Below, one piece after another: positions 1-61,056 of a stretch of DNA of 64,000 nucleotides (its first letter is position 1; each line of letters opens with the position of its first letter). The position numbers and the translations under genes are program-made. The stretch covers positions 248,001 to 312,000 of the forward strand of contig JADGKB010000002.1 in the NCBI GenBank assembly GCA_027604185.1. Reading direction: 5' to 3'. The notes below the pieces were generated by a model. That model was not told the origin of the DNA and did not search any database. It was given only the letters and a program-made list of their open reading frames with translations. This DNA is from Boothiomyces macroporosus. Lineage: Eukaryota > Chytridiomycota > Chytridiomycetes > Rhizophydiales > Terramycetaceae.

Positions 1-917
1 TGACTCAATGGTTGCTTGGATTCACAATCACCTTATATATCCTGTTGATCATCTTCTTCAATTTCAAAGTTAGTGCAATTAAACGCTGGGAATCTACAAT
101 AATATCTCTGTGTATCATATTACCCCTTCCACTGTCATTCATTATCCTGTTTTCAAAGCCAGATGGTGTCAATTCGTTGATCGGAGATGCCGACTTGTAA
201 TTTTGGATTAACTGTAGTTGGTGCTGGATATCCTCAGAACACTACTCTGTGTACCAAGTGGGTTTGGGTTTGCTACCAAATATAGCCATAATAGTTGGCG
301 AAACCCTTTCTTTCTTTGCAATCGCTCTCACTATTGCTGGTAACAGTGAAGAGTATGTCGTTTCTAATTTTAGAATTCAGGAAATGCTTTCCAAACCGTA
401 CAAGCGGTATATCATTACAAGAATGCTGGCTTATATGATTGCATTCTGGATTATCTGGGCACCAACATTAATTAATAGAATTGCAGAATACACCATTGGA
501 CAGCCAGTATTCATACTAGCAATGATAAATGCTGCTACAACACCTGGACAAGGCTTCATTCACTTTTTGGTGTTCTTGATTACATGGTAACTTTTAATTT
601 ACGATAGGTATTTATCTCCGTTGGTCAGATATCCAGATTCGACACCTCTATCGGACAAAGATTCCGAACATCAGATGTACCAAAATCCATATACCAACTA
701 CTCTGATACATTCGATAACGGCTTTGATAGCATTACTGTTCTCAACACTGTAATGAATTCGTTACCTCCTTTAGAAGGGCTACCAAATAGACGAATGTCA
801 ATTGTAGTTCACGATGCTGGCCGTAGAAGTTTAGATCAAGCAACAGATAGAACAAGTTTAGATGAATTGGATGGTGTAAGCAAGTTTAGAGAAAGCCACA
901 GGCATTCGGTTGCTTAG
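1..917 (+). CDS. Seven-transmembrane receptor, cAMP-receptor/secretin-like class (5' end missing)
   Basis: The frame is open at the left window edge, so the N-terminus lies outside. Exons are <1-196, 218-586 and 608-917; the two 21-nt introns (197-217, 587-607) restore one frame. The product is a polytopic membrane protein with at least five hydrophobic helices visible. A short CWIS stretch opens the exon after the first intron, like the Cys-Trp-Ile signature of Dictyostelium cAMP-receptor/secretin-class GPCRs, and a Ser/Thr/Arg-rich cytoplasmic tail of about 100 residues follows. Likely role: plasma-membrane G-protein-coupled receptor; ligand unknown. It converges on Nic96 with under 40 bp between stop codons. 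The family call rests on topology and the short motif, so Git3-like or other fungal 7TM classes remain possible. Confidence 0.6.
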
Positions 918-955
918 TTCCATAAAGTGATAAAATATATAATTTCTCTTGTACT

Positions 956-3714: not shown

Positions 3715-4536
3715 TTATTTCGCATTGTGATAGACATTAACCACCTCATCTTGATTTTCTATTGCTTCTAGAAAGGTCGAAAAGGAAGCGCTGTCAGCTT
3801 CATTCAGTTCTATTTGGTCAAGGGGGAAGAACCCAGAATAGAATTCCTTAATCTCATAGCCCTTGGCAGCCAGAGCTGTTTGGATGGAGTTGGTATCGTT
3901 GATTCCGCAGAATATTTGAATTTCATCTTCCAACTCTATAAAATCATCAATTTCATGTTCAAGGGCGGAATCTGCCATTTCTGCCAGTGTGTGATTGGTA
4001 GTGCCTTTTCCATATATAACTGTCCCCTTGTGCTGGAATAGATACTCTACCGGACCCATGGTGCCTTTTTGTTTCTTGAATATTGATTTAACCTCTGCGT
4101 TTGTTTCTAAATTAAAGGATATTACTCGCAGAATTAGAAACCATGCATTCCACTACGCAAGCAACCCCTCCAGGTGAAAGTCCTTCAAATCGGATAATTT
4201 TAAAGTCTTCTTGTTCCTTTGGCGATGTAGCTCTTTTGATCGCATCTTGAAGAGTGTGTTTTGGCATTTGGGCGACTTTAGCTTGATGCAAAGCCGATGC
4301 CAAGTAGTGATTAAGGGATGTATCTGTTTCTCCATTCATTGCTTTAATTGCTCCAACAATTTGCTTAGAGATTTTGCTAAACAGCTTTCCCCGCTGTTGA
4401 TCGTTCGCTCCCTGAGTTAATCGCTGGAAACCTTCGCATGTCTAATCTTTGACCTGAGATGAATTCCAAATTACCATTTGTTGTGTCCCGCAAATCTTAC
4501 TTGGTTGTACCTGCAATTAATCCGTCTCAAAAACAT
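3715..4536 (-). CDS. YebC/TACO1 family mitochondrial translation factor
   Basis: Four exons (4536-4475, 4453-4432, 4411-4126, 4106-3715) separated by introns of 21, 20 and 19 nt give a 253-residue protein. The family hallmarks appear only after splicing: AGHNKWSKIRHAKGANDQQR at the N-terminus, then QMPKHTLQDAIKRAT, PGGVACVVEC and KKQKGTMGPVEY. In the family, TACO1 activates translation of mitochondrial COX1, and bacterial YebC proteins assist ribosomes or act as regulators. The N-terminus MFLRRINCRYNQ is basic and could be a mitochondrial targeting signal. The second exon is only 22 nt, a micro-exon between two ultra-short introns. The stop codon overlaps AATAAA. The start is 88 bp from the start of the divergent SAM-domain gene. 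Confidence 0.88.
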
Positions 4537-10057: not shown

Positions 10058-10960
10058 ATGACCAAACGAGTTTTATCAATTCAGAGCCATGTGGTTTACG
10101 GAACAGTAGGAAATAAATGTATAGGAAGACTAACATTCAGCTGCGACGCTTCCACTGCAGCTCCTCGGGTTTGAAGTCGACCCGCTAAACACAGTTCAAT
10201 TTTCAAACCATGCTGAATACGAGATATTTAAAGGACTGGCATTTAATAGACAAAATATTCAGGATTTGTTTCAAGGATTGATTTTGAATGAATTCGTTTC
10301 AGAATACACTCATATGATAACTGGTTACTGCGGTAAAGCCGAATCACTGCTGGAGATTTATGATTTCCTTGTAAAGCAAAAAAGAGATGGATTGACCATT
10401 GGTATTCATTGATTTATGTAGTGGTTGACCCAGTGCTAGGTGACGATAACAAATTGTACGTTTCCAATGATCAGATACCCATCTACAAACAAATGATTGC
10501 GATCGCTGATTTAATTACACCAAATGGATTTGAGGCAGAGTAATATACTATTAAGTATAGAATTTTATCTGGCATTAAACCAAGTGCTGATAATATTCGC
10601 CAAGTCTTTGATATCCTACACAGTTTTGGACCAAAGATGGTGCTGATAACATCAGTTATCGAGTCTAATGGGGATAAACAAAGTCTGGTGTTGTACGGTT
10701 CTGATAACGGTAAACTGTTCAAGATTTATATTCCAAAGATTGAAGGTAGATTTGTAGGAACTGGTGACGTGTTTTCTGCACTTGTGTTGGGCCATTTGGA
10801 CAAGGGACTGGTTAAAGCTTGTGAGTTGTCTGTTGATACAATGCAAAAGATTCTAGAGAACACTTGCAAACTAAAGAGGAAAAGAAATGAATTGGCTCTG
10901 GTTGCCAGCATTTCTGATATCCTAAACCCAACTGCAACAGCCAAGGCAATATTATTATGA
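10058..10960 (+). CDS. Pyridoxal kinase (PDXK/BUD16 type)
   Basis: Exons 10058-10118, 10141-10401, 10422-10539 and 10561-10960, with introns of 22, 20 and 21 nt. The product starts TKRVLSIQSHVVYGTVGNK and continues LLGFEVDPLNTVQFSNHAEY, VVDPVLGDDNKLYV, LITPNGFEAE and the ribokinase-fold anion-hole motif GTGDVFSALVLGHL. It phosphorylates pyridoxal, pyridoxine and pyridoxamine in vitamin B6 salvage, in the cytosol. About 279 residues, slightly shorter than yeast and human enzymes. The catalytic Asp of the GTGD motif is present. It overlaps in signals with PAF1: the two stop codons are 4 bp apart and the PAF1 AATAAA lies across this gene's end. Confidence 0.9.
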
Positions 10961-15751: not shown

Positions 15752-16992
15752 CTACAAGAATACCCAAGCTGTTCCTAAACTGCCCATTACAATTCCAGAT
15801 AAGGTTATAAAGATTTCAATAGCCCATTCAAGTTTGGAAAGCTTCTGGCCAAACAGGGACATGTAGCAGCACGACGGGAAAACTACAGACACAGTAAAGG
15901 CAAACACAGACCCTAACAGTGCCATTACTTTGTGGAATTCAGGTACAGCAATAGAAATAAACAAAATTATGCCACCAGAGAGCGTAATTGCCAAAATTCT
16001 TCTGATGCTTGGTCTTGTATCAAAAAAGTATCGTATAATTTCTTCAAGCTGTGAGTTTAATGGACTTATACTAATGGGGTATTTGGTGAATGCATTGATA
16101 GCTACCAGACCAATCATCAAGTTTGATAGAATCTTGTTATATTCTGGTATGAGCGGGATGTTTTGAGTAATCTAGGTTAGCCTTAACTTACTTCATCCTT
16201 TGTGTCTGCGCCAAACATCAAGTAGCCAATAACACCAACGAACCCGTAAATAAATACAACGATAAGATAGGAGTAGTTGAGTAGTTTGTTGTATTTTTCA
16301 GGGTGTCTCATGTCATGATAGATCTGTGGGAAAACTATGATTAATTATGAAATACCAGAATGACCACAGAAACCAGCCATAAGCAAGCCGAATGATAAGG
16401 GGATATGAGAATACGAAAGTGGGACAGCGTTAACTGGAACACTGTGGATAATAGAGCCTGGAGCTTGCTGCTTTGAGAGGCCGTTATACGAAAGAATTCC
16501 AATCAGATTGCCCATTGCAATGATACCAATCAACGAAATATAAGAGATCAGAGATAATGATCTCGGCCAAGTTACTGGGATTACCGATGTTGCAACTATG
16601 ATTTTCACATACATTGGGTCATACATTGGAAACAAAGCAACGATGGAATCTGCAGTTAGAATTACTAGCGCTACGGCCACTGTACCCAGCTCCAAAAAGA
16701 ATAATATACTGATAAAAGTTCTTCCAGGAATACCAAATGCAGCCTGCCCAATGTCGCTATACGTGAATCCAGCTTCATCGTTTGCCTTGCATTTATTCAA
16801 GCATTTTCCTAGCAACATTCCTGTGTGATGCGTAATTACCGCAAACAGCACCAGTAAAACTAGTCCCAGGCCATAACCAGTAATACTGAACGCAAACGGA
16901 AGGGAAAGCAATCCAGTTCCCATGAGGATATTCACAGAGTTAAATAAAGAGTTGGAGAAATTTGAACGGCGTTTCTTTTCAATCATTACCAT
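15752..16992 (-). CDS. Amino-acid transporter, AAAP/AVT family (copy A)
   Basis: Three exons (16992-16356, 16334-16192, 16171-15752) with introns of 21 and 20 nt, 399 residues. It begins near FSNSLFNSVNILMGTGLLSL, the first-helix signature of the Aa_trans family, followed by about ten further hydrophobic helices, including the AAFGIPGRTFISILFFLELG region and GFCGHSVFPQIYHDM. Members move neutral amino acids, usually proton-coupled, across vacuolar or plasma membranes (yeast AVT, animal SLC36/SLC38). It is the last of a head-to-tail series of three minus-strand paralogues. The very short N-terminus lacks the regulatory extension seen in copy D. The stop is followed within 2 nt by an AATAAA hexamer. 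Confidence 0.88.
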
Positions 16993-17386: not shown

Positions 17387-18622
17387 CTAAAAGAAAACCC
17401 AAACCGTTCCCAAACCTCCCATCACTAAACCTGCGGCTGTAATTAATATTTCGACAGCCCATTCGAACCTAGTCAGTTTTGATCCAAACAAGGACATGTA
17501 GCAACAAGAAGGGAATATTACTGATACTGTGAATGCGAAAACAGATCCCAACAACGCCATTACTTTGTGGAATTCAGGTACAGACACTGATATGAACAGG
17601 ATGACCCCTCCAGAAAGTATAATTGTCAGAAATCTTCGAAAGGCTGGTTTAAATTTGAAAAAATATGTAAATATTTGTTCTAGCTGCGAGTTTACAGGGC
17701 TAATACTAATAGGGTACTTTGTAAAGGCGTTAGTCGCTACTAATCCAATCATCAAGTTGGTCAATATCTTGTTGTACTCTGGAACTAGCGGTATATTCTT
17801 TGTAATCTTTTGTTAGTGAACAGCATACTTCATCTTTGGTATTGGATCCAAACATCATGTACCCGACAACACCTACAAAACCATAAATCAAAACAACAAT
17901 GAGATAGGATAGGTTCAGCAACTTTGGATACTTTTCTGGCTGTTTCATATCGTGGTAGATTTGTGGAAATACTGCATCAATTCAAACATACCTGAATGAC
18001 CACAAAATCCTGCCATCAAGAGCCCAAAAGATAGAGGAATTGGAGCGTACATTGGAGGATTAGCAGAAATATCAGCAGATTGAAGAATTGATCCTGGTGA
18101 CTCTTTTTTAGTCAACCCATCAAATGACAGAATTCCAACCAAATTCACCATTGCAATAATTCCGATAAGTGAGATATACGAAATGATTGACAACGACCTT
18201 GGCCAAGTTGCAGGAATAACCAAACAAGTGACGGCTATTTTGACATAAAATAAATCAAATTGGGGGAATAGTGCAACCATAGAATCAGCCGTCAAAATGA
18301 CCAAGGCAACTGCAGCCGTTCCAAGTTCCAGAAAGAAAATGATACTTATAAATGTCCTACCAGCTGTTCCAAATGCCGCCTGCCCAATATCGCTGTAAGT
18401 AAATCCAGCTTCATCATTCGCCTTGCACTTGTTTAGACACTTTCCTAAATGTTTCCCGGTGTGATGAGTAATTACAGCGTAAAGCACCAATAAAAACAAT
18501 CCAAGTCTGTAGCCAGTGATACTGAATGCAAAAGGCAGAGAAAGCAGTCCCGTTCCCATTAGTATATTAACTGAATTAAATAGCGAGTGAGAAAAATTCG
18601 AGCGTCCAATCTTTTCTATCAT
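17387..18622 (-). CDS. Amino-acid transporter, AAAP/AVT family (copy B)
   Basis: Exons 18622-17992, 17971-17829 and 17806-17387, introns of 20 and 22 nt, 397 residues. Same architecture and same intron positions as copies A and C. The start MIEKIGRSNFSHSLFNSVNI was chosen to match copy A; the frame is open further upstream to another ATG at 18712. The second intron differs completely in sequence from those of A and C although its position is identical. Probably an endomembrane or plasma-membrane neutral amino-acid transporter. Confidence 0.88.
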
Positions 18623-18762: not shown

Positions 18763-20045
18763 CTAAAAGAATACCCATACTGTGCCCATACCTCCCATCA
18801 CAATACCAGCTGCTGTAATGAAAAGTTCAACTGCCCATTCGAATTTGGTTAATTCGGAACCAAATAACGACATGTAGCAGCACGATGGGAAAATAACAGA
18901 TACTGTAAAGGCAAATACAGATCCTAAAAGGGCCATTACTTTGTGGAATTCAGGGACTGATACTGCAATAAACAAAATCAATCCACCAGAAATGGTAATT
19001 GACAAAAGTCTCCGCACATTCGAGTTCATCTTGAAAAAGAAGCTAAAGATTTGTTCCATTTGCGAGTTGACAGGGCTGATACTTATTGGATATTTTGTAA
19101 ATGCATTGATTGCAACCAGGCCAATCATTAAATTGGTCAATATAGTGTTGTATTCTGGAACTAACGGAATATTCTGAGTAATCTAGGTTAGCCTTAACTC
19201 ACTTCATCTTTAGTATCGCTTCCAAACATAAAGTATCCAATAACACCAACAAACCCGTAAATCAGCACGACAATGAAATAGGACAAGTTGAGCAATTTTG
19301 GATATTTTTCAGGCTGCTTCATGTCATGATAGATTTGAGGAAATACTAGGATAAGAAATGAAATACCAGAATGGCCACAGAATCCAGCCATCAATAAACC
19401 AAAGGATAGTGGTATCGGAGAATACGCTGGTGGTCCTGCCGATACATTGGCGCTGTGGATTATGGAGCCTGGTGATTCTGCTTTGGTGAATCCATCATAC
19501 GAAAGAATTCCAATCAGGTTTACCATCGCGATAATTCCAATTAATGAAATATAGGAGATGATGGAAAGAGATCGAGGCCAAGTAGCAGGAATAACCAAAC
19601 ATGAGACTATGATTTTTACATAGAATAGGTTGTAATGGGGAAACAAAGCAATAATCGAATCAGCGGTCAAAATCACAAGAGCTACTGCTGCAGTGCCCAA
19701 TTCTAAAAAGAATATGACACTGATGAATGTCCTCCCAGGAACCCCGAATGCAGCTTGTCCAATATCGCTGTATGTAAATCCAGCCTCATCATTCGCCTTG
19801 CACTTGTTCAAACACTTGCCCAAGTGTTTCCCAGTGTGGTGCGTAATAATAGCATAAAATACTAGCAGAAATAGGCCAAGACCATATCCTGTAATACTGA
19901 ACGCAAATGGAAGGGACAGTAGCCCAGTTCCCATCAAAATATTCACAGAGTTGAACAGCGAATTCGTAAAGCTAGACCGTCCGTCGTTTTCAAATAACTT
20001 GAACTTGTTCCGCAGTAACATCAATTGAGTTGGTTCTTGCTGCAT
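18763..20045 (-). CDS. Amino-acid transporter, AAAP/AVT family (copy C)
   Basis: Exons 20045-19367, 19345-19203 and 19182-18763, introns of 21 and 20 nt, 413 residues. The first intron (19346-19366) is 21 nt and has no in-frame stop, so unspliced message would still be translatable with seven extra residues; alignment to A and B shows it is an intron. The second intron is 19/20 identical to that of copy A although flanking exons are clearly more divergent. The N-terminus has about 15 more residues (MQQEPTQLMLLRNKFKLFE) than A or B. The whole gene is repeated at 61359-62641 with no difference that I can find. Confidence 0.9.
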
Positions 20046-20404: not shown

Positions 20405-22050
20405 ATGACTGACCCAGAGAGAGCAATCGATATACAGCCAGGCAATCGTCGAGGCTCAGACAGGAACTACGGAAGCTTTTTGGATTTACAAAGGAATACA
20501 TCCATTTCCAATGGCAACGTTCAGCCATCTTGGTCGTCGTCATACAAGCGATCGTTAGATTATACATACTTCAGGAATAGCAGAGCATCAGGTGTTACAC
20601 TGCCTAGTATTAGCATTGAAGATCCCAGTCCAAACACTCCAGATTTCACAGATGATGAAAGTCCACTGTTGGAAAGCTCATTCCTCAGGAACCCGAAATT
20701 AGCTCGACATGATGATGTTTTAGGGGACACAGAGGTAATATACGAAGAAGAAGAAAGCCTTATTGAAGAAATTGATCAAGTTCACTCCACTTTTTCACAA
20801 ACGCTGTTCAACAGTGTAAATATATTGATGGGAATTGGCATTTTATCACTGCCTTTTGGCTTTGCTATTACTGGCTGGGCTGTAGGGCTTGGTCTTCTAG
20901 TGCTGTTTGGATTAATGACGTATCACACTGGATTGTTGCTGGGAAGATGCTTGGGAGAGAGAAAGAGCGGCCAACCAGTATGTTACACATATGGAGATAT
21001 AGGTATACACAAACTAACAGTAGGTGAAGCAGCATTTGGTATGGGCGGCCGTACATTCATCTGTATTGTATTCTTTCTTGAGTTGTGCGCTGCAAATATT
21101 GCTTTAATCATTTTAGCGGCCGATTCTATCGTTGCACTAGTTCCTTCATTGGATTTAGTTCTTGTAAAATGCGCTGTTGCTTTCATTGTCTTTCCTTTGA
21201 CTTGGCCAAGGTCACTGGCAATTGTTTCTTATGGATCATTGATTGGCATCATTGCAATTTTAAATCTCGTTGCAATCCTTTTGGTCGATGGATTTTCTAA
21301 ATCCACTGCTCCAGGTAGTTTGTGGGAACCTGGAAATACCAGTGTGTTACCACCTGCCTATTATCCAATCCCATTAGCATTTGGATTGATTATGGCAGGG
21401 TTTTCTGGTATGTTTAAGCTTACTTTAGGTCATTCGGTTTTCCCAAATCTCTATAGGGATATGAGAGAGCCTGAAAAGTTTCCGCTGCTTTTGAAATCAA
21501 CCTATCTGGTCATCATGATATTCTATGCTCTAGTTGCGTCTGCAGGCTACTACATGTTTGGAGATGCAGTTAGGGAAGAAGTAAGTGTTTCTAATCTAGA
21601 TTACTCAAAATCTTCCGTTAATTCCAGAATATAATCCTATATTAACGAGAGTTACTGTTGGAATAGTAGCAATTAATCCGTTAACGAAATACCCACTTAA
21701 TGTAGCCCCACTGAACTTTCAACTTGGTAAGAGTCCACTAACAAGAACAAATATTACTCTATTTTATTCCCTTGAAATCAGTTAATCTTTCCAGAGCAAT
21801 ATGCTGTGTTGCGTCTGCCATTGTAATTCTATTCGTCTCGGTAACTTTTCCAGGATTCCACTCTGTAATGGCTTTGCTGGGATCATTCTTTTCATTTACT
21901 GTATCAGTAGTATTCCCAGCAATGTGCTATTTAAAGCTTTTTGGGTCAGATATCAGTACACTTGAATATCTGTTTGAAGTAACTGTCGCCGTAGTTGGGG
22001 CTTTCTTTGGTATTGTAGGTACCGTATGGGTGTTCTTACCACTAAATTGA
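20405..22050 (+). CDS. Amino-acid transporter, AAAP/AVT family, with long N-terminal tail (copy D)
   Basis: Five exons (20405-21002, 21024-21407, 21429-21580, 21600-21726, 21746-22050); introns of 21, 21, 19 and 19 nt; 521 residues. The N-terminal 125 residues are hydrophilic, Ser/Pro- and acid-rich, as in AVT1-type vacuolar transporters; then HSTFSQTLFNSVNILMGIGI begins the Aa_trans domain. Two of the introns (21003-21023 and 21408-21428) are multiples of three without an in-frame stop and so look like coding in a raw translation; comparison with copies A-C shows each would insert seven residues at a conserved site. It is transcribed divergently from copy C and converges on an unknown gene with 40 bp between stops. 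Confidence 0.88.
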
Positions 22051-22090
22051 CGGCACTCAAAAGAGTTATTGAAATTAAATAAGTGTTTAT

Positions 22091-24795: not shown

Positions 24796-26524
24796 TTACT
24801 GTTGGAATTGAGCAGCAAAGTCACCAAGGACCTTTCTGATTTTAGCATCAGTTTCAGGGCTAATTGCGTTTTCCTTCTTGATGGCAGCAAAGATTTCAGG
24901 TGCGTTTGCGTTGACGTATGGAACGAGAGCAGCTTCGAAAGCAGTAACTTTGTTAACTGGGATCTTGTCAAGGAAACCGTGGACACCAGAGAAGATAATG
25001 ACGACCATGTGTTCAACGGAAAGTGGGGCATATTGGTTTTGTTTCAACAATTCAGTGAGACGGGCACCACGGTTAAGTGTGGATTGAGTAGCAGCATCTA
25101 AATCAGAACCGAATTGAGCGAAAGCAGCCATTTCACGATATTGAGCCAAGAAAAGTTTGAGGGAACCAGCAACTTGTTTCATGGCCTTGACTTGAGCAGC
25201 AGAACCGACTCTGGATACGGAAAGACCGACGTTAATAGCTGGACGAACACCCTTGAAGAAGAGTTCAGCTTCCAAGAAGATTTGACCATCAGTGATAGAA
25301 ATTACGTTGGTTGGGATATAAGCAGATACATCACCACCTTGGGTTTCAATAACTGGAAGAGCAGTCATGGAACCACCACCAAAGTTCTTGTTCATCTTAG
25401 CAGCACGTTCTAAAAGACGGGAGTGGAGATAGAAAACGTCACCAGGGTAAGCTTCTCTACCTGGTGGACGACGGAGCAACAAAGACATTTGACGGTAAGC
25501 AACAGCTTGCTTGGACAAATCATCATAAATGATAAGAGAGTGCATGCCATTGTCACGGAAGTATTCTCCCATAGCAGCTCCGGAATATGGAGCCAAGAAT
25601 TGAAGTGGAGCAGCATCTGAAGCAGTAGCAGCTACAACAATAGCGAACTTGAGCGCATCGTTTTCTTCCAAAGTTTGGACGAATTGAGCGACGGTGGATC
25701 TCTTTTGTCCGACAGCAACGTAGATACAGTAAAGTTTCTTGGTTTCATCAGAGGTGTTGTTCCATTTTTTTTGGTTAAGAATGGTATCAAGAGCGACAGC
25801 AGTCTTTCCGGTTTGACGATCACCAATGATCAATTCTCTCTGTCCACGACCAATTGGTACCATGGAATCGATACATTTAATTCCGGTTTGCATAGGTTCG
25901 TTGACAGATGCACGAGGAATAATACCTGGAGCCTTAACTTGAACTCTTTGACGTTTAACGTTTTGGAGTGGTCCCTGATATTAAATTTGAAGTACCTTTC
26001 CGTCAATTGGGTTTCCAAGGGCATCAACAACACGGCCAAGGAGACCAGCACCAACAGGTACGTCTACAATGGAACCGGTTCTCTTGACAATATCACCTTC
26101 CTTGATAAGACGATCGTTTCCAAAAACTACAATACCAACATTGTCGGTTTCCAAGTTCAAAGCTTGCCCCTAACAGTCAATTAACAATATACCTTAATAC
26201 CAGAAGAAAATTCCACCATCTCTTCTGCTTGGACATTCTTAAGACCATAAACACGGGCAATACCATCCCCAATGGAGAGTACTCTTCCAGTTTCCTGAAT
26301 ATCAAAAGACTTGTCAGCACCAAGGATTCTTTCTTCCAAGATTGAAGAGACTTCAGAAGTCACTAATATAAAATATGTCCTTACAAGCTTTAGCAGCAAA
26401 TGCTGGCTTTGAAGTTGAGATTGGTCTTGCAAGTGCAGCTACACGAGTCTAATACAATTAAATTCGATTGACTTACAGCGACTGAAGAGCGCATCAGAGG
26501 AGCGAAACGAATTGTTCTAAACAT
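24796..26524 (-). CDS. ATP1: Mitochondrial F1-ATP synthase alpha subunit
   Basis: Five exons (26524-26477, 26448-26385, 26362-26193, 26169-25996, 25974-24796) with introns of 28, 22, 23 and 21 nt give 544 residues, the usual length. The P-loop GDRQTGKT, the [20 protein letters not shown] block and the adjacent [17 protein letters not shown] segment are intact. The N-terminus [16 protein letters not shown] is a mitochondrial presequence. The protein forms the non-catalytic nucleotide sites of the F1 head. The first intron, at 28 nt, is the longest I find in the window. The message appears highly expressed: codon choice is more biased than in its neighbours. The promoter lies in the 270-bp gap to bL21m. 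Confidence 0.98.
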
Positions 26525-37859: not shown

Positions 37860-38973
37860 ATGTCATCAGTTAAAGAATCTCTTAAGAACCTACCAACAAC
37901 CTTTCAAAAGATCATTGTCCACACTCTCTCCAACGATTTCGATCAGGCAACTAAAATCGTTACTGTTGATTTCAAATCATTTATTTCTCAGCTAAGACCA
38001 AACCAAGTAGTTGTTAGATACAAATACGTTGGTATTAACGCCTCAGATATCAATTTCACCGCTGGAAGATACGACCCAACAATCAAGCCTCCTTTTGATG
38101 CTGGTTTTGAAGCTATTGGGGAAGTTGTAGCCACGGGAAAGGCAACCAAAATAAAGCTGTTACAGCCAGTAGCGGTAATGAACTATGGTGTTTTTGCTGA
38201 ATATCAGATTGTGTCTGAAAAAGCATTAATTCCAATCCCAACACTAAACAAAGCATTTTTGTCCTTGATCGTGTCTGGATTAACTGCTTCGCTAGCCCTA
38301 GACTACCATGGACATATGAAATCCAAGGAAGTTGTTTTGGTTACTGCTGCAGCTGGTGGTGCTGGCCAAATTGCCGTGCAATTGGCAAAACTCGCGGGTA
38401 ATCATGTAATTGGAACTTGCTCCACTGGAAAAGAAGCCTTTTTAAAGTCAATTGGCTGCGACAGGGTCATTAACTACAAAACTGAAAACGTTGCAGCAGT
38501 ATTGAAGAAGGAGTACCCAAAAGGTGTAGATATTGTATTTGAATCTGTTGGAGGAGAAATGTTCCAAACTTGCATGAAGGCATTGAATGTAAAAGGTTCG
38601 TATTGCTGATTGTAGGTCGTATGATTATCATTGGCGCTGTTTCCTCTTATGCAAACGAAGTCAAGGATGGTGAAAAGATGAACGTGTTTAGCTGGGACTC
38701 TGTGAAAACAAACACTCTCCTCAACAAATCAACCACTATTACAGGGTTCTTTTTGAATCATTATGTATCAGAATTCCCTGTAACAATGAAGAAACTTACC
38801 GATTTGACCCTCTCTGGTAATTATAATTAATTTCAGGTAAACTCAAGCCTGCTACTCACGATGAAGGATTTGCAGGGTTGCAAGATGTATCCAAGGCAAT
38901 TAAATGCATGCATGCTGGCAAAAACATTGGTAAAGTTGTTGTGGAATTGAAAACTCCATCAGCGAAACTATAA
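37860..38973 (+). CDS. Zinc-independent quinone/prostaglandin reductase (MDR superfamily)
   Basis: Exons 37860-38595, 38616-38816 and 38837-38973, introns of 20 and 20 nt, 357 residues. It has the MDR features YKYVGINASDINFTAGRYD, FDAGFEAIGEVVATG and the NADPH-binding Rossmann motif VLVTAAAGGAGQIAVQLAKL. It lacks the Cys cluster of zinc alcohol dehydrogenases, fitting the ZADH2/PTGR3 branch, which reduces enones and quinones. Cellular location is not shown; no clear targeting signal. The C-terminal PSAKL resembles a peroxisomal PTS1 tripeptide (AKL). Confidence 0.87.
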
Positions 38974-45002: not shown

Positions 45003-45191
45003 ATAGGCTTGAGTCATTGGTGTGCAACATTGATATACCTTCCTGCTTTTCCCATAGAACTAGCCAGTCTGTTGACGAGTATACGCAAGTTCTACTGGAT
45101 TATAGGAGGACATTTTACTGGTATTGGTTTAATTTATCATACTCAGCATAAATTAAGTCAAGTGCAAAGACAATATAAATTAAAAAAGTGA
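45003..45191 (+). CDS. Possible small membrane protein (3' exon)
   Basis: An open stretch of about 62 codons containing IYLPAFPIELASLLTSIRKF and WIIGGHFTGIGLIY, hydrophobic with a charged tail KLSQVQRQYKLKK, like small mitochondrial inner-membrane proteins. There is no in-frame ATG, so a first exon would have to lie upstream; I could not find a typical 19-24-nt intron giving one. It sits 28 bp before the ACBP gene. Confidence 0.35.
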   Translation: MGLSHWCATLIYLPAFPIELASLLTSIRKFYWIIGGHFTGIGLIYHTQHKLSQVQRQYKLKK

Positions 45192-49753: not shown

Positions 49754-50370
49754 TTATTTTGCGAGAATTGTAATATAATCTTCATAATAAATCTTGTTTT
49801 CTGCTGGATCAGTACAGGCAGCCAGCATTTCTTCAATCTCTTCTTCTGTAAATACTTCGCCTTGGGAAGTTAGTGACTTTTTCAACTCATCTGGAAGTAA
49901 ATAACCTTTCTTGTCTGTATCTAGAGTCAGGAACGCTCGAAACAGAGTTTCTTCGTCACTCTTCACTGGATAAGTTCCACTAAGAATTCTAATAGTGACT
50001 TTGGAAAATCTTTCCCATGTAACAAATCCTGATGGCTCATCTTCTTCCATCTACGTTAAATCAATGCCATACTTCAGTTACCCATCCATGCAGCTGCTCC
50101 AAAGTAGGATAAATCCCCAAAGATCTCAGGATTGTACCGATTTCACGTACTATATTAGTTGAAATTACCATCACATGTGCTGTTGTTTTGTTGGTCAAAA
50201 GTATCAAATGCTGCCCTGACTCGCTTCAAAAGGATTGTTTCTGGAGACTCTACTTCTTTTACGGGAAGCGGAGGAAGTGGAGCTTCAACAGATTGAATTT
50301 CAACTTGTGGTTTTTCAATTGGGGCTTCTTCTTGTGTGGTTATTTCTGGAACAGGTACTTCACCGTTCAT
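49754..50370 (-). CDS. Dynein regulatory complex subunit 8 (DRC8/EFCAB2), EF-hand protein
   Basis: Three exons (50370-50169, 50149-50073, 50050-49754), introns of 19 and 22 nt, 191 residues. Calmodulin-like: RVRAAFDTFDQQNNSTCDVR followed by EIGTILRSLGIYPTLEQL, then EEDEPSGFVTWERFSK, FLTLDTDKKGYLLPDELKK and a fourth EF-like end KIYYEDYITILAK. This order and spacing fit DRC8/EFCAB2 of the nexin-dynein regulatory complex in axonemes. Not all loops keep the calcium ligands. The N-terminal 45 residues are Pro/Glu-rich. The gene is the strongest sign that the organism builds a motile flagellum. Centrin is the main alternative but fits less well. Confidence 0.78.
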
Positions 50371-53269: not shown

Positions 53270-56200
53270 TCAAACAGAATTCTGTGAGTCCGTGTAATTC
53301 AACAGAGATCCTCCTGCTTTCGTGACTTTCATTGGGGGATTACCAACATCTTCAAGGGGACGCTTGGCAGAAGGATTACCGTATCCTCCACCACCTGGCG
53401 TTTCAATTCGAATCCTATCACCCTTTTGCATAACAGTGGAATTCTTTCCTCCAAAATTCACCCAAAGCGGACCTTTTGCAGTGCTTCTGATCAAATAATT
53501 CATTCCAGCAGCTCCAGAATCACCCCCATTCAGCCCATAAGGTTGAAATACCCTTCTTTCGGACAAAATCGATAATTGGAGCTCTTCCAAAAATTCAATC
53601 TGGTTTAATATTGCTTTTACCTCTCTTACCACACCATCTCCACCTCGGTACTGTCCTGCCCCACCACTATTCTTTCGCAAACTGAATTCTCGGAGAATCA
53701 CAGGATACCGTCTTTCCAAGATTTCTGGATCAGTAATTCTTGTATTTGTCATATGTGTATGCACTCCAGATCTTCCATTCCAAGTTGGACCTGCACCGGA
53801 GCCACCTGCAATTGTCTCATAGTAACCAAACCCTTCGCCTTCCTGAACTGCATCTTTACCAAACGTTAAATTATTGCAGCAGCCTTGCGAAGCCGAGCAT
53901 GCCCTAAATGCTTTGAAAATAACATCACAAAGTCTTTGGGAGGTCAATACATTCCCTCCAACTACCGCGGCAGTTTCGCTTGGGTTTAACAAACAACCTT
54001 CAGGGATACTAATTGAAACCGGACCTAAAGCACCTTGATTCAAGGGCATATCCAAATTGATCAAGCACCTCAGGCAATATATGATGGCAGAATAACAAAC
54101 TGATTTAGGTGCATTCGTATTTGCATACACTTGAGGACCAGTTCCAGCAAAATCAAATGAAGCAGTGCCCTTAGCAGGATCAATTCGTACAGTTAATGCA
54201 ATGGGTGTGCCATCATCCATATAATCGACTGCGTGTAACCTACTTCCAAGAGTTGCATGGGTCTTCTTCAGCAAATCACAAACAGCATGGTACGCATTTT
54301 CTTGTATGAATTTCATATACGCTTGAACAATTGAAAGTCCAAATTCTTTAATCAGCGATTTCACCAGTTGAATTCCACGATTATTCGCTGCAACCTGAGC
54401 CTTGAGATCCGAAATATTATCTTTGATACATCTACTTCCTGTACACCCAGCGTACTGGGCAGGATCCGTAACCAAGAGTTTTGTGATTCCCTTTTCGTCA
54501 AAGACTCCATCCTTGACAATCTGGAAAGACTTGATAGCAGCTCCTTCTTGATAGAGTTCTCTGGAGTTTGGAGGCATCGACCCAGCTTGCATCCCCCCAA
54601 TATCTGCATGATGTCCTCTAGACGCAACGAAAAAGACAATATTTCCATTATCAAAAACGGGAGTAATTACTGTGATATCCGGGAGATGTGATCCACCAGC
54701 CATAGGGTGATTGGTAAGCAGCACAGTACCTTCTTTTATCTTGTTCTTTAAATGCTTCATTTGCCATTTAACTGCTTCTTGCATACTTCCGAGATGCACT
54801 GGTATGTGCGGAGCATTTGCGACCAATCCACCATCTGGCCCAAATAAGGCACAAGAAAAGTCGAGTCTTTCTTTGATATTTGTAGAAATGGATGTTTTTT
54901 GCAGAGTTCTTCCCATTTGTTCTATAGTTTAACAAAAATTACCAGCGATACTCATAAACCTATGACCAAAAACGGACAATAAAATAGGATCACAAACTAT
55001 CTCTGTTTCTGAAACAACCATTTCTTGTTTACCAACAAACCCAACCACATGCTCAGAGGTAACTACAGCTTTGCAGTTGGGCTCCACAGCAATTGTTGAA
55101 GTATTGTCCAGAATCAAAGCAGGTCCAGATATCTCAGACCCTACTGGTACATCTTTCAACAGATATACCGGGGTATTGATTCTTCCAGGCCCCTCCCAGT
55201 ATGCAGAAATGGTATGGGAAGCTTTAGAGAAAGGTTTTCGATTAACAGTTTCCAACTCTTGGTATACCGTGGTCCATTTCACATCCTTTCCGGTTGCAAT
55301 ACTCTTTCCAATTCCTCGAATGCGAATATCGTCCACCAGTATAGATCTATCTGGCAATGTAAACCCAAATTCCTGTTGATAGTTTTCCAAGAATATTTTT
55401 TCAAACTCCCACGAATTTGTAGGTTTTAGTGTCATAATTGCAGTATCAGTACCCTGGTATCGCAAGTTAAGGTATACTTCGGTTTCAATCTTGCTCCCAG
55501 GAAATCCTTGCTGCTTCAACTCTTTTCGACAAAGCTTATCTAACCTCGTGCATGTGTCTTTGATATCCTTCATTTCAGAAGCCTGAAGAGTGTGTGCAGC
55601 AGGTTCTTGAATTTCATAAACAACATCTGCCAATGCCTGACCATACGCAGAAAGTATTGAAGAATATTTGTGAATCAGTATTGTATGAATTCCTAAAGAT
55701 CTTGCAATGGCAAATGCGTGCTGACCACCAGCCCCGCCAAAACACGCTAAAATGTGATCAGATGCCTTAAACCCTTTCCCTTCAGTCAACGCTCGAATAG
55801 GTCTGCACATAGACTCATTTGCAACTTTGATGAAACCATACGCTATTTCATCGATAGACATTTCCTTTGAGCCGTCCTGCTTTGCAAGAAAAGCGTTGAT
55901 TTCCTTGGCAATTTTTTCAAAGCCTAACTTTGTAGCATTTTTATCCAATGGCTCGTTTTCGGATTTGCCAAAAATCTTTGGAAAGTATTCTGGATCCAGC
56001 CTACCGAGCTGCAAATTGGCATCTGTTATCGCTAGAGGACCATTTTTTCTATAACATGCAGGTCCAGGATGAGCAGACGCACTTTCAGGGCTAATATCAG
56101 GGAAAATTTACCCAACTACAAACATGCCATTTCGGAAAAATAATCGAGAGCCTCCGCCAGCTGCTACAGTGTTAATATCTAATTGAGGAGCCTGAATTGG

Positions 56201-57343
56201 AATACCAGCAGTTATAGTTTCAAAAACATGTTCAAAAGCTCCTCCGAAACGTGAAACATCCGTAGAAGTGCCACCCATGTCAAACCCAATTACAGCTTTT
56301 CCATTTTCTTGCCAACTTGTTGTAGCATACCCGACCACTCCACCGGCAGGCCCACTCAAGATTGCTTTTGACCCATTAAAGTTGAAAGCATCTACTAAAC
56401 CACCGTCAGATTGCATAAATTCAACTTTGACCTTTGGTTTTTGCCCATTCAAAGCCAACATTCCGTCATCGAATCCAGAAAAAAAAGAGTCAAGGTATCT
56501 TTGAATACATGGAGTTAGATAACCATCTGCAGTGGTAGAGGTACCTCTAGGTACCAACTTGATCATTGGCGATACGCTGCTTGATATAGTTACGTGTCGA
56601 AATCCGATCGATTTACACAGTTCTTGCAACTGCAACTCGTGGTCTGGAAATGTGAATGCATGCATAAGGCAGATAGCAACGCTTTCAATACCCGACGATT
56701 TAATTCTTTCAAGTCTAGGTCTGATTTTTTCCAATTCTAAATCAGAAATAGTCTACCTGGCGCCTTCAAAATATGCACCCATTCTCCAGTAATCCCTTTT
56801 ACATAACTATCGTCACCTTCAGGTATTTGAACGTTCAATCCTGATGCTACTGACGAATATCCAACAAGGGTAACCCTCTCATCAACTTCCAAAACTTGTT
56901 TGTACAACACGTCTGGTGTAGCAATCGATAAATCAAACAAATTAGGTCTAGCTTGATTGCCAATCTTTAAAATATCACCAAACCCTTTCGTTATCAAAAG
57001 TGCTGTTGGTTCTCCCTTGCGCTCCAGCAACTATATTAAATTTGATGTTTACCGCATTCGTCGCTACTGTTGTTCCCATTCGGATCAATTCAAGGTTAGA
57101 TGTGTCTACTGGTTTATCCCGTGGATGTTTAACCCCGGTAGCAATTTCCAAGATCCTCCGAATACCTTCTCTTGGAGCATCCTGGTAATTATTAGGGTCT
57201 ACTGACAAGAGCTTCACTACGATTGTTCGAAATGGTTCCTGTGGTTTTGGAGATCCCTTTGGATATATATGATTTGGTACGAACGCTATGCAATCGGTAA
57301 ATGTTCCTCCGCGGTCAACACACACCCGAATTTTAGATTGCAT
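53270..57343 (-). CDS. ATP-dependent 5-oxoprolinase
   Basis: Five exons (57343-57053, 57030-56757, 56736-56112, 56090-54943, 54921-53270), introns of 22, 20, 21 and 21 nt, 1329 residues. It begins [20 protein letters not shown], the hydantoinase A start with its ATP-binding DRGGTFTD; further HyuA marks are [20 protein letters not shown] and [14 protein letters not shown]. The C-terminal HyuB half has [42 protein letters not shown] and a final GGGGYGNPS. It hydrolyses 5-oxo-L-proline to glutamate with ATP, a step of the gamma-glutamyl cycle of glutathione turnover. Its start lies only 46 bp after the PDI stop on the same strand. Confidence 0.95.
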
Positions 57344-57389: not shown

Positions 57390-58958
57390 TTAAAGTTCTT
57401 CACGCTCAACCTTATCATCAGAAGATTCTGAAGATTCTGCTTCTCCGGCCAACTGCTCACCATGAACAGCATTCTTGATCAAGAATTCTTTGAAGCTTTC
57501 AACAGAACGTTCACCATTGAAAGTGACTCTTTCATTTGAGTCGGCTTTGAATAAAATAATGGTTGGGAACCCTTGAATATCAACTGGGACGTCATTTGCA
57601 GTAGCATCACATTTAGCAATAACAATATCTGAGGTCTTTTTAGCAATTTCAGCACCTAATTCTTCCCACTTTGGAGCCAATTGCTTACAATGTCCACACC
57701 ATGCTAAGATTAGAAAAATTCTTACGAGCATAGAATTCAATCAAAACATCCTTCTTTTCATCAAGAACAAGGGACTTGAAGTTCTTTCCAACAACGACTT
57801 TAACTGGTTCATCGTTTGATTCTGGGATTTCTTCAGATTTGAGAGTTGGCTTCAAAGTCCCTAAAGATTAAAATTATCTTACCTGAAGCGAATCCTTTTA
57901 CAAGTGCTTTGATATCAGCAGCTTCAAGTGCTTTGGATTGATCATAAGGGAACTTTTCGTTCTTGACAGTGTTGTGAATAGCGAATGCTGGCCATTCTCC
58001 TTGTTTAAGTCCAACATTGTCAGCATGAGCACCATACAAGTTTGCGTCCAAGTAGACAAAGTTAATTTTGCCCTTGTGTTCTTTTGCAATGGCTTCAAAA
58101 GTAGGGCCATGTTCAGATCTTTGTTCTGGAGTAGAGTAGAAAAAGTAACCCATTGGTAGACCCATAGACATGTACTTTTCATAGTTTTGTGGACCAATGT
58201 CATCCATAACTGGAGTAGCACTGACCTTGACGAATTCAGATAAAGCATCCTTTTCATATTTACCATCAAAAGTGTTCTTTCCTTCATCGAATTTCTTGAA
58301 CAATACAACAGCTGGGGCAGCAACGTCATTAGCCTTGATTAATTTTTCAGAGGAGGTGGCAGCAAAGATGTAATCGTCTCTAAGGACAGAGGCGACCTTG
58401 TCGAATACTCCACGTTCTTTGCTTCCTTCAGCAAAGAAACCAACAACTACAACTTTGTTTTCTTCAGTAAGTGCTTCAAGTTCGCTCTTGGTGGTCAATT
58501 CAGATACAGCAGGCAATAATTGTTTCTTCATAGTGTCAACGATAGAGGTTGAAGTACGTTGGCCTTTGTAGTCTGAAGGAGTACCATCTCTAAAGATTTT
58601 AAGAGTAGGGAATCCTTGAATTCCATAATCTTCACAAGTAGTCTTTTCAACTGTACAGTCTACTTTGGCAAGTGGAACTTTTTCAAGCAATTCAGTAGCA
58701 GCACGTTCATATTCTGGTTTCAATCTAAAGTTAATTAGCGGTTACTGTTTACAGTGTCCACACCATGGCGCATAGAATTCGATCAATGAGAGTGGGTTTT
58801 CAGTAAGGAAGCTCTTGAAGTTGGTATCGGTTAAAACAACAACATCGCTTTGTTCATCAGAGTGATCATGATCGTGATCATCATGTCCTGCATCTATATT
58901 AATCTACTCAATTACGAGCGGCGGCAAATGCAGCAAGGGCAAAGAGTGAGAACTTCAT
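57390..58958 (-). CDS. Protein disulfide isomerase
   Basis: Five exons (58958-58916, 58893-58746, 58724-57883, 57860-57726, 57703-57390), introns of 22, 21, 22 and 22 nt, 493 residues. A cleavable signal peptide [14 protein letters not shown] is followed by an unusual His/Asp run ([11 protein letters not shown]). Two thioredoxin domains carry [11 protein letters not shown] active sites, each interrupted by an intron, with two inactive thioredoxin-like domains between. The tail is acidic and ends REEL, a KDEL-like ER-retention signal. It forms and rearranges disulfides in the ER lumen. TAATAAA at the stop. The codon bias suggests high expression. Confidence 0.95.
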
Positions 58959-59257: not shown

Positions 59258-59842
59258 ATGACTAAACAAAGCCTGCATAAATTTCCCAGAATGTTGAGAA
59301 GATTTTCCACTCTGAAAAAAATGTCAGAAATATACAACTTCAAAGTCAAAGATCTATTTCAACGAGACTACGACCTTGCAGCTCTTAAAGACAAAGTAGT
59401 AGTGGTATTCAATACCGCTTCAAAATGCGGTTTTACCCCTCAACTCGAAGATTTTGAAAAGTTGTACAAAAAGCATAAAGATAACGGACTGGTAATCCTC
59501 GCGTTTCCTTGCAATCAAGTACGAAATTTCTAATCTAGTTCGCCAACCAGGAACCGGGGAATGCAGAAGACATTATTGAGGTTTGCGAACGAAATTATGG
59601 AGTTACTTTTCCAGTGATGGAAAAAATAGATGTAAACGGTGATAACGCTCATCCACTGTTTGAATACTTGAAGAAGGAAAAGCCTGGTATCTTGGGATTG
59701 AAGCGAATCAAGTGGAGTAAGCCTAAACTAACCAGATTTTGAAAAGTTTTTGATTGACAAGCAAGGCAACGTTGTCAACAGATATTCCTCCATGGTAAAG
59801 CCGTTTGACATTGAACCAGATATTTTAAAATTGATGGAATGA
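59258..59842 (+). CDS. Thioredoxin-dependent glutathione peroxidase (Cys type)
   Basis: Exons 59258-59518, 59539-59716 and 59736-59842, introns of 20 and 19 nt, 181 residues. Motifs VVVFNTASKCGFTPQLEDFE (peroxidatic Cys), ILAFPCNQFANQEPG and IKWNFEKFL (catalytic Trp-Asn) are all present. The active residue is Cys, encoded by TGC, so this is not a selenoprotein. An upstream basic stretch MTKQSLHKFPRMLRRFS suggests an alternative mitochondrial form; a second ATG at residue 22 could start a cytosolic form. It reduces hydroperoxides in the same redox network as its neighbours. Confidence 0.93.
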
Positions 59843-59899
59843 ATTGTTTTGCACTTTTCAACTGTTCAAGTATAGCGTATCACAATAATGAAACATTGT

Positions 59900-61056
59900 T
59901 TATTTCTTTGCCTTCTTCTTTCTGTATTCAGTGGCTAAAAGGTCAACAATTTCTTGTTCCTTTACAGAAATATCAGAAACGATGGATTCATCTTCCCAGG
60001 TACCAGAAAGCTTAATTGGACCGTTTGGCATCAACAAGATGGTGAACACTACGTGGGCAACATGTGCTTCAGGCTTTTCCAAAACGACTTCATACCCGTT
60101 AACAAGTCTGTGGGTGTTGCATTCAATGATACCCATGCGAGCCTTCTTTTCATCTTCCAATTGTCTAAGAGAGAATGCCATAGTTCCGCAATTCTTTTGG
60201 ATTTGGGAAAAGATTTGTCTGGCAGTGTTCATTTTCAATTGGTAGACTGCATCAGCATTGCGCTTGAAAACAGTGGTACGTACATTTCCTGGCTTTGGTT
60301 TTCCATCACCAGTAGAGATTAAGAGGTCAACGGAATACACTTCTCCCTGTTCAAAGGTATGGGTTTCGATTTCCTTTCTTTGTTGTTCAGATGGGTTCAG
60401 TACAATTTGCTTTGGTCCATCCAAGACGTTTCTCAAGACTTGGTGAGTAAGGAAGCCTGAAAGTCAGTTCTATCATACCTTCAACAGCCTTGCATCCAAA
60501 TTCGGCAGCAATCTTGTCAATTACTTCAGTGACTTGATAGTTGGTGTTTCCTGGCTTGATCAAACGAATGGCAGCTTCAGCACAAGTGGCTGCTGCTTTA
60601 ATAACATCTGCTTTCTTTCCAGTAACTGGTGCTGCTTTGGAGGCACCAACAACCACAGTTTGAGCAACTTGAGATACGTATCCGTCGACATGTGCACCCA
60701 ATTCAATTCTGACAACGTCTCCGTCTTTCAAAGCGAGGGATGATTCAGGATCAGAATCCAATGGAGATAAATGGCAAACATATTCGTTTGGTGATACACA
60801 GGTTGGGAATGCGATACCCTTCTTGACTTTGTTCTTGTTGTAAACAGTCTTTGCAATCTTTTCAATGGTTTCATCACCTAATTTGCAAAGGTCCAATACC
60901 TTTGCTCCAGCCTTGGTGGCATCTACGACTGCCTTGATTGCACCTAAGGTTAGACCGAGATCTACGAGCAGTGATGTCTCCAGCAACTTGGTACTTGGTG
61001 ATATTTACTGGTGAGAGTTCATTTTCATTAACTTCAACTTCTTCGTTGTCTGCCAT
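59900..61056 (-). CDS. EBP1/PA2G4-like proliferation-associated protein (MetAP-fold)
   Basis: Exons 61056-60966, 60943-60479 and 60456-59900, introns of 22 and 22 nt, 370 residues. It contains VNITKYQVAGDITARAIKAV, KKGIAFPTCVSPNEYVCHLS, a GAHVDGYVSQVAQT block and RMGIIECNTHRLVNGYEVVL, all as in PA2G4/EBP1. Despite the aminopeptidase fold the family lacks the metal ligands and works in ribosome biogenesis and at the ribosomal exit tunnel. A Lys-rich C-terminus ends YRKKKAKK. The stop is fused to AATAAA. It is the last unique gene before the duplication junction. Confidence 0.9.

Follow-up and report, generated by a model that had tools for sequence, protein, structure and literature searches.

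In Stentor coeruleus introns measure 15-16 nt, the most abundant begins with GUAAUU, and the branch A lies at position 10 of 15 nt, 5 nt from the intron end (PMC9505925). Mikrocytids, parasitic rhizarians with a highly reduced spliceosome in which 17-19 proteins were found, have introns of 16-17 nt, 224 of them spread over 179 genes in M. mackini; the same report gives 18-21 nt for the introns of chlorarachniophyte nucleomorphs (PMC10245619). Paramecium introns are about 25 nt (PMC5014332). Trichomonas type B introns are also about 25 nt, with a minimum of 23, and account for 24 short introns among 63 active ones, a long class existing beside them (PMC12316389). The preliminary description of the DNA studied here had listed precedents for introns of this size; the ultra-short class is indeed known, and the mikrocytids (16-17 nt, PMC10245619) are to be added to that list.

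The window, a stretch of 64,000 nt from a contig of Boothiomyces macroporosus, very probably carries true U2-type spliceosomal introns that have been compressed genome-wide to 19-23 nt in a Terramycetaceae-like chytrid, a reading in which splicing itself is deduced from the DNA. A codon-only Viterbi gene finder, for which any GT..AG segment of 8-150 nt was an intron of equal cost and which held no branch, donor or length model, placed 82 introns in the window, 44 of them at 18-25 nt. In the identical run, 239 decoy pairs of boundary dinucleotides gave a mean of 6.8 and a maximum of 19 at 18-25 nt (17 of 256 pairs were left out, namely GT-AG and 16 with an acceptor equal to the reversed donor). 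In the window, three AT-rich decoy pairs slightly outscored GT-AG in total path score; the evidence is therefore the length peak and not the total score. On 20 other contigs (200 kb) the same finder gave 89 GT-AG introns at 19-23 nt against a mean of 12 and a maximum of 16 for 15 hand-chosen decoys of similar composition. A motif model without a length term placed 121 introns in the window, 87 of them at 18-24 nt; with a 34-nt maximum the number at 19-24 nt was 107, and at least one intron of 18-24 nt occurred in 34 of the 41 window gene models. The earlier estimate of about 90 short introns in about 29 genes was thus right in scale. Its length range of 19-24 nt captured a real short class and is refined to mostly 19-23 nt, the main range found. 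That the introns are real, as then claimed, is borne out by a peak that arises without any prior on length, both in the window and in the 20 contigs, and by frame, homologue and paralogue support. Coding sequence carries about 1.6 introns per kb. Two window models (g00 and g31) have broken starts. The long introns of the first models were discarded as noise because decoys yielded equally many, the 30-34 nt 'introns' in the window models look like artefacts, and a model 'intron' at 12205 fuses two stretches that we take to be PEX11-like and PAF1-like.

Motifs and spacing were tabulated for 336 introns of 19-23 nt, identical sequences with identical flanks being counted once and models without a start codon left out. 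Most have a GTA donor and a YTNAY branch motif, the latter complete at the called branch site in 268 of the 336; the GTA donors and the TTAAY or CTAAY motif before AG of the preliminary description hold up. Branch points are motif calls rather than mapped lariats. In 281/336 introns the distance between the donor and the called branch A is 14-16 nt; the A falls at +8 to +13 in 46/336 and at +17 or +18 in 9/336, and some of the calls away from +14 to +16 are probably miscalls. This nearly fixed distance, as found in ultra-short intron populations, is a sharper regularity than any in the earlier account, which placed the motif 4-10 nt before AG. Its closeness to the intron end stands, and the interval is refined, the called branch A lying 4-7 nt from the end in 290/336. 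As to introner-like spread, eleven near-identical intron pairs occur among the 336, and of the ten listed one joins paralogues.

The assignment to the U2 type draws on GT..AG ends, imposed by the finder and then tested against decoys, on a branch motif complementary to the GUAGUA of U2, and on the restoration of frame upon removal (in the paralogues, ATP1, 5-oxoprolinase, the SMC6 and EBP1 homologues and the 336-intron set). The genome yields a U2 candidate with GTAGTA, a U1 candidate with ACTTACCT (68.8 bits, slightly below Rfam's 69.5) and a U6 with ACAGAGA on the minus strand of the sequence read. The subset of protein factors searched gave SF1 with a KRKTRW motif, U2AF65 and U2AF35 with recognisable domains, Cwc25, and a relative of Isy1 whose N-terminal gene model is uncertain. 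The predicted Cwc25 contains MGGGDLNLKKSWHP and shows no loss of the N-terminal glycine motif of the Stentor type; an upstream extension in its gene model is probably a wrong start. As judged from the sequences read, U1, U2, U6, SF1, U2AF65, U2AF35 and Cwc25 can be recognised and look conventional, and the changes for which the preliminary description would have inspected U2, SF1 and U2AF did not appear there.

A structural basis for recognition at this size can be proposed, in which each intron is read as one composite element; as a whole, we hold this mechanism to be evenly balanced between right and wrong. The 5' end of the intron (GTAATT or GTAAGT, about +1 to +6) would pair with U1 and later with U6, and the YTNAY motif (A at +14 to +16) would, after SF1, pair with U2. 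A gap of only about 4 nt would remain between the donor and branch pairing sites, placing the two RNA helices nearly end to end, and the 3' splice site would be a YAG with its G 4-7 nt past the branch A. There is no room for a polypyrimidine tract after the branch A, which would leave U2AF65 to be held by protein contacts (the KRKTRW motif of SF1; U2AF35 on the AG) rather than by a tract. Splicing, the branch points and the order in which the parts are recognised are deduced, while the existence of the introns is shown by frame, homology and paralogues, and their length, their motif spacing and the presence of the snRNAs and factors named above are observed. Tentatively, and with a little more doubt than belief, we suggest that a conventional fungal spliceosome handles near-contiguous U1/U6 and U2 sites genome-wide without a polypyrimidine tract, a trait derived in the Terramycetaceae.

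It is also possible, though we do not favour it, that recognition proceeds through modified or alternative short-intron factors (SPF45-like, RED/Smu1-like or a changed Prp8) and not through ordinary SF1-U2AF. In human introns about 50 nt are needed between 5' splice site and branch site, Smu1-RED being essential when that distance is short (PMC6692369), and U2AF65 requires at least eight pyrimidines, SPF45 taking its place on truncated tracts (PMC8363638). The introns described here have neither that spacing nor a tract of that size, which lends such factors some weight, but SF1, U2AF65 and U2AF35 are retained with recognisable domains. A Pfam search for RED gave no candidate, which also counts against it, in a search whose control genomes were equally blank and which cannot demonstrate absence. 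Seven G-patch matches were obtained in the search for SPF45, and neither of the two regions read was identified as that protein.

The compression to 19-23 nt would be only half of the picture if a normal long class had been overlooked beside the short introns. The finder covered introns up to 150 nt in coding regions, which leaves such a class some room above that length and in untranslated regions. We nevertheless consider it unlikely, as no band between 24 and 150 nt rose above the mean of the 15 decoys in the 200 kb from 20 contigs: 9 against 13.2 at 24-29 nt, 28 against 37.6 at 30-49 nt, 37 against 61.3 at 50-99 nt and 37 against 37.4 at 100-150 nt. Added length made little difference to the codon-only finder, which recovered about 40% of native introns exactly (117/288) and, when they were lengthened artificially by 20, 50 and 80 nt, 99, 112 and 113 of 288. 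A narrow length peak below 30 nt without a longer class, as in ultra-short populations, was thus found in the window and in the 200 kb for introns up to 150 nt.

Were the segments small coding insertions or assembly indels, the genes would be read through or broken, an explanation that we regard as highly improbable. It can draw on 24 of the 336 segments, which are multiples of three, free of stops and readable through, and on an exact long duplication in the assembly. Against it, keeping the intron breaks the frame or adds a stop in 312/336; the segments have GTA..YTNAY..YAG in common at near-fixed spacing, with no such peak at decoy boundaries; and homologues are gapless at most junctions compared, family alignments being the very test that the preliminary description had named for coding segments. 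Among introns with a length divisible by three 53/77 contain a stop, the finder itself favouring stop-bearing ones.

The junctions were compared with six EBP1 and seven SMC6 homologues, out of 120 matches listed. Both introns of EBP1/PA2G4 (22 nt each; 60457..60478 and 60944..60965, minus strand) are gapless within four residues in 6/6 chytrid homologues compared. In SMC6 (plus strand) eight of the 14 introns are gapless within four residues in 7/7 homologues: intron 1 (22 nt, 30600..30621), placed by the motif model in an N-terminus that is hardly aligned; intron 6 (19 nt, 31933..31951), at low identity; and introns 8 (19 nt, 32458..32476), 9 (21 nt, 32713..32733), 10 (22 nt, 32924..32945), 11 (21 nt, 32991..33011), 12 (22 nt, 33422..33443) and 13 (21 nt, 33703..33723). 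The other six have a gap at most four residues away in at least one homologue. One of these, intron 2 (20 nt, 30915..30934), coincides with an insertion of seven residues in the Terramyces record that is absent from the six other homologues; the remainder reflect poor alignment or a garbled Terramyces record, namely intron 3 (20 nt, 31218..31237; gapless in 6/7), intron 4 (20 nt, 31340..31359; 5/7), intron 5 (21 nt, 31411..31431; 6/7 within four residues), intron 7 (23 nt, 32338..32360; 4/7) and intron 14 (22 nt, 33996..34017; 5/7).

That record belongs to the closest relative found, Terramyces sp. JEL0728 (Chytridiomycota, Rhizophydiales), a collection strain, identified from two proteins; the best protein relatives are chytrids, in line with the flagellated (zoosporic) fungus of the preliminary description. 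The Terramyces Hsp70-SMC6 record has seven extra residues at each of two Boothiomyces intron sites, the second being the 20-nt intron at 29125..29144 (plus strand) of the Hsp70-like gene; at the 21-nt intron of the same gene (28940..28960, plus strand) the record (P0121) has no insertion. Each seven-residue insert, that in the Hsp70-like gene included, can be back-translated into 21 nt that fit a GTA..YTNAY..YAG intron of matching phase, a pattern fitted in that phase by 22 of 181,987 windows of 240 proteins, the two Terramyces inserts among them. The public Terramyces protein thus appears, from its residues, to treat two 21-nt introns at identical sites and phase as coding sequence. Twenty further chytrid SMC6 proteins (P0122-P0141) have 26 insertions of 5-9 residues that keep the frame, and one of them (in P0138) fits this signature; of two such insertions in 39 EBP1 proteins neither does; these counts depend on each annotation and are weak evidence.

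Amino-acid transporter paralogues provide a comparison within the window, by paralogue alignment. Four of them share an intron site at an identical alignment column and phase (phase 0), flanked by conserved protein, at which the introns measure 20, 22, 20 and 19 nt (16172..16191, 17807..17828 and 19183..19202, minus strand, in paralogues 1 to 3; 21581..21599, plus strand, in paralogue 4); a duplicate copy of paralogue 3 has a 20-nt intron at 61779..61798 (minus). At a second site, on the minus strand, lie introns of paralogue 1 (21 nt, 16335..16355), paralogue 2 (20 nt, 17972..17991), paralogue 3 (21 nt, 19346..19366) and its duplicate (21 nt, 61942..61962). Paralogue 4 (plus strand) has a 21-nt intron three codons off that second site (21408..21428) and two of its own (21 nt, 21003..21023; 19 nt, 21727..21745).

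Further genes bring the introns named here to 54, the 28-nt one included, against 107 of 19-24 nt in the models. In ATP1 (minus strand) the junctions of a 21-nt intron (25975..25995) and a 23-nt intron (26170..26192) are gapless when the spliced protein is aligned with two ATP synthase alpha chains of known structure. A 22-nt intron near the presequence (26363..26384) follows the motif model, with a one-residue gap about four residues off, and the length outlier of 28 nt in the presequence (26449..26476), which the preliminary description had reported, is plausible from its GTAAGT, TTTAAT and TAG. In the 5-oxoprolinase-like gene (minus strand) three of four junctions, counted by hand in an alignment to 7hk5_A, are gapless within four residues (21 nt, 54922..54942; 21 nt, 56091..56111; 22 nt, 57031..57052); at the fourth (20 nt, 56737..56756; motif model) a 13-residue gap ends about six residues before.

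The other introns were placed by the motif model in genes whose spliced proteins have Pfam matches, in a scan of 8/41 window models. The PDI-like gene (minus strand; Thioredoxin, 209.9 bits) has introns of 22 nt (57704..57725, 57861..57882 and 58894..58915) and 21 nt (58725..58745). The Snf7-family gene, the VPS24 of the preliminary description, has two of 19 nt (28359..28377, 28500..28518) and one of 20 nt (28628..28647), and a Phos_pyr_kin-family gene has introns of 22 nt (10119..10140), 20 nt (10402..10421) and 21 nt (10540..10560), all on the plus strand. Two of 20 nt lie in a zinc-binding dehydrogenase (38596..38615 and 38817..38836, plus), one of 22 nt and one of 19 nt in an EF-hand protein (50051..50072 and 50150..50168, minus), and single 19-nt introns in glutathione peroxidase (59717..59735, plus) and YebC/TACO1 (4107..4125, minus).

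Non-spliceosomal removal, by DNA elimination as of ciliate IESs or by tRNA-type splicing, merits practically no credence: the segments resemble the shortest ciliate eliminated sequences in size, but their GT-AG ends and branch motif fit the U1 and U2 sequences found, and the nearest protein relatives are chytrid fungi, not ciliates.

These results support a genome-wide population of ultra-short introns in a zoosporic fungus, with splicing deduced as set out above. The literature searched gave no description of such introns in a Terramycetaceae-like chytrid lineage. Introns of about 20 nt are far below the length thought necessary for human splicing, and, set against relatives (Batrachochytrium and Globomyces among them), they offer a natural test of how short the donor-branch and branch-acceptor distances can be for a spliceosome. 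If a conventional spliceosome does handle them as suggested, neither the spacing rule of about 50 nt nor the need for a tract seen in human splicing belongs to the core machine. The introns also pose an annotation problem, as the one Terramyces record compared in detail appears to translate stop-free 21-nt introns and to garble exons.

Ciliates, and reduced parasites or endosymbionts, are the organisms in which ultra-short populations are known; the host described here is a zoosporic fungus, and those of its splicing factors that were read look conventional. Stentor and Boothiomyces share GUA donors, a narrow length range and a branch A at a near-fixed position, and in both U1 and U2 recognition sequences look conventional and both U2AF subunits (U2AF2 and U2AF1 in Stentor) were found. 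They differ in length (15-16 against 19-23 nt), in the spacing of donor and branch A (10 nt in Stentor, 14-16 nt here), in the branch consensus, which is not strong in Stentor whereas YTNAY is strong here, and in Cwc25, which lacks the glycine plug in Stentor and has MGGG in the predicted Boothiomyces protein (PMC9505925). Mikrocytids are similar in narrow size range and conserved motifs, but their spliceosome is highly reduced, whereas SF1, U2AF65, U2AF35 and Cwc25 are all present in Boothiomyces (PMC10245619). Trichomonas type B introns likewise have a CTAA branch motif a few nucleotides before the 3' end, among 63 introns with a long class, compared with about 1.6 per kb coding here, where the search up to 150 nt gave no long class (PMC12316389). 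Paramecium, a ciliate, also has only very short introns, slightly longer than these (PMC5014332). The closest match in length is the chlorarachniophyte nucleomorph (via PMC10245619), which is a relict endosymbiont nucleus, whereas that of Boothiomyces is, by its relatives, a fungal nuclear genome (15.2 Mb of sequence).

The genome comprises 15.2 Mb in 216 contigs, the window being bases 248001-312000 of contig C2. Because the answer must not be built into the search, we used a Viterbi gene finder, run on both strands, whose only score is codon usage and which may skip any GT..AG segment of 8-150 nt at equal cost. This codon-only finder chose 82 introns in the window, 44 of them 18-25 nt long, and the tallest peaks of the length histogram stood at 20, 22 and 21 nt. 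The identical program, run in the window with 239 other boundary-dinucleotide pairs as decoys, placed a mean of 6.8 and a maximum of 19 introns in the 18-25 nt band. Three AT-rich decoy pairs reached a total score slightly above that of GT-AG because their letters are commoner; the argument is therefore the length peak. In a wider sample (20 other contigs, 10 kb each, bases 20001-30000 every time), 89 of the 214 GT-AG introns measured 19-23 nt, whereas 15 decoy pairs of similar composition averaged 12.1 in that range and never exceeded 16. Ultra-short introns exceed chance and are confirmed. The preliminary description, which had proposed a population of spliceosomal introns of 19-24 nt, is borne out by the length peak over the decoys in the window and the 20 contigs, and its interpretation was right.

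A search for a longer class (200 kb, 20 contigs, codon-only finder) left every band between 24 and 150 nt below the decoy mean. As a positive control, 288 native introns of 19-23 nt from the window and the 20 contigs were lengthened in silico by 20, 50 or 80 random bases; the same finder recovered 99, 112 and 113 of them exactly, compared with 117 when unchanged. Lengthened introns are thus found about as well as native ones, which argues that a sizeable class up to approximately 100 nt within coding genes would have shown up.

A donor-branch-acceptor model with no length term called 121 introns in the window, including 87 of 18-24 nt; in the 20 contigs it called 340, with 202 measuring 19-23 nt. 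Capped at 34 nt and applied to 264 kb, in which 172 gene models hold 205 kb of coding sequence, it gave 421 unique introns of 14-34 nt, of which 336 were 19-23 nt, a density of roughly 1.6 introns for each kb of coding sequence. For 312 of the 336, retention would disrupt the reading frame or introduce a stop codon. GTA accounts for 90% of the donors, and 88% of the 3' ends are TAG or CAG. Positions +4, +5 and +6 are most commonly A, T and T, so that G at +5 reaches just 19% (T, 43%); this low value is seen despite a conventional U1 5' end. In 281 of the 336 the donor G and the called branch A are 14-16 nt apart (+8 to +13 in 46, +17 or +18 in 9), and in 290 the distance from this A to the intron end is 4-7 nt. 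The full YTNAY is present at the called site in 268 introns, with gaps of about 4.3 nt from +6 to the motif and about 2.2 nt from the motif to NAG, a spacing that would leave no room for a pyrimidine tract downstream of the branch.

Comparison of coding sequences across the junctions agrees with removal of these segments. Four neighbouring amino-acid transporter paralogues in tandem (window 15752-22050) have a common intron, in the same phase and alignment column, that measures 20, 22, 20 and 19 nt and is flanked by well-conserved exons; this comparison is independent of any database. One paralogue has introns at two extra sites, and its second-site intron is three codons from that of the others, possibly through intron gain or sliding. 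In spliced ATP1, the two junctions inside the mature protein are gapless against solved ATP synthase alpha chains (two alignments), and both EBP1 junctions are gapless in all six chytrid proteins compared. Three of the four 5-oxoprolinase junctions are gapless within four residues (hand count, part of one alignment); the fourth lies about six residues past the end of a 13-residue gap. For SMC6, 8 of 14 junctions are gapless within four residues in all seven homologues, one of the eight lying in the barely aligned N-terminus, and the remaining six show a gap in at least one homologue. A Pfam scan of 8 of the 41 window models found a family above the curated cut-off in each.

Sequence comparison also disclosed a direct repeat, which starts inside a transporter gene (window 18681-21404 and 61277-64000, extending to 24404 and, on the stretch L048, to 67000). 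Its copies lie 42.6 kb apart and match at 100% identity for at least 5,724 bp; either the duplication is very recent or the assembly is at fault. Short tandem repeats occupy 61136-61277. A match to SNORA53, an H/ACA snoRNA family (44934-45114; Rfam, 60.5 bits, cut-off 38), falls between gene models, in a fungus.

Over its full length, EBP1 shares 95% identity with that of Terramyces sp. JEL0728 (Terramycetaceae, Rhizophydiales, Chytridiomycota) and mostly 54-62% with those of other named chytrids among the matches listed; for SMC6 the values are 73% and, among the matches listed, at most 42%. Judged by these two proteins, the studied strain is a close relative of Terramyces sp. JEL0728 and might be a Boothiomyces. 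These chytrids are free-living saprotrophs. The public Terramyces protein record P0121 is a fusion of Hsp70 and SMC6, which are separate adjacent genes in the window. It carries seven extra residues at each of the window intron sites 29125-29144 (Hsp70) and 30915-30934 (SMC6), and a 21-nt intron of the form GTA..YTNAY..YAG, its branch A at 15, could encode either stretch when placed in phase 2, which is also that of the two window introns. Such a phase-2 fit occurs in 22 of 181,987 windows of 240 homologous proteins, the two P0121 stretches included. The record omits the intron cleanly at about 8 of the 14 sites in SMC6; elsewhere exon stretches are missing or garbled. The extra residues and the clean absences argue that the ultra-short class is very probably present in Terramyces as well, and that its annotation seems to read stop-free 21-nt introns as coding. 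On this reading, short introns are already implicit in the public Terramyces annotation. Other Terramyces sp. JEL0728 proteins may have similar errors.

Components of the splicing machinery were located in the genome. Two U2 snRNA copies carry GTAGTA; a U1 candidate contains ACTTACCT and scores 68.8 bits, slightly below the family cut-off of 69.5; and U6, above its family cut-off, shows ACAGAGA when the minus strand is read. SF1 keeps KRKTRW. Judged by domain features, the SF1 model also has a KH region along with two zinc knuckles, the U2AF65 model starts RS-rich and contains a tryptophan region as well as three RRM-like stretches, and the U2AF35 model retains both CCCH fingers. The U2AF65 match, from a search run exon by exon, was under the cut-off of the full-length model. 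Introns in the SF1 and U2AF65 gene models are all 19-24 nt, and the U2AF35 model has one additional intron of 26 nt. The Cwc25 model has one 21-nt and one doubtful 14-nt intron. Its regions on two stretches, L033 (contig C49) and L034 (contig C100), give identical predicted proteins at identical coordinates, which at the protein level suggests duplicated assembly segments. Predicted Cwc25 carries the glycine motif MGGGDLNLKKSWHP, which is absent in Stentor, where its loss is part of a proposed steric-clash idea (PMC9505925). Its presence here argues that this loss would be unneeded at a donor-branch spacing of 14-16 nt.

Efficient assembly in human extracts needs about 50 nt from the 5' splice site to the branch site (PMC6692369), and human U2AF65 needs a minimum of eight pyrimidines (PMC8363638). 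Neither requirement can be satisfied by introns of 19-23 nt. The distance from donor to branch is almost constant, which suggests that the helices of U1/U6 and U2 would lie nearly end to end, and the 3' end may be fixed by the least distance from branch to acceptor. This proposed mechanism is directly testable.

In the literature searched, which left subscription journals mostly outside its coverage, the matches listed held no description of such introns in chytrids. A survey of 644 fungal genomes describes the 63-bp mean of Cryptococcus as relatively short, and neither "short introns" nor "shortest" occurs in its text (PMC8476143). Precedents are Stentor, mikrocytids, nucleomorphs, Paramecium and Trichomonas. 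In Stentor the branch is likewise followed by 5 nt, but its distance from the donor is shorter (10 nt versus 14-16 nt here), and the commonest intron starts GUAAUU, comparable to the low +5 G seen here (PMC9505925). The chytrid introns extend a known phenomenon to a new lineage and form a distinct variant of it.
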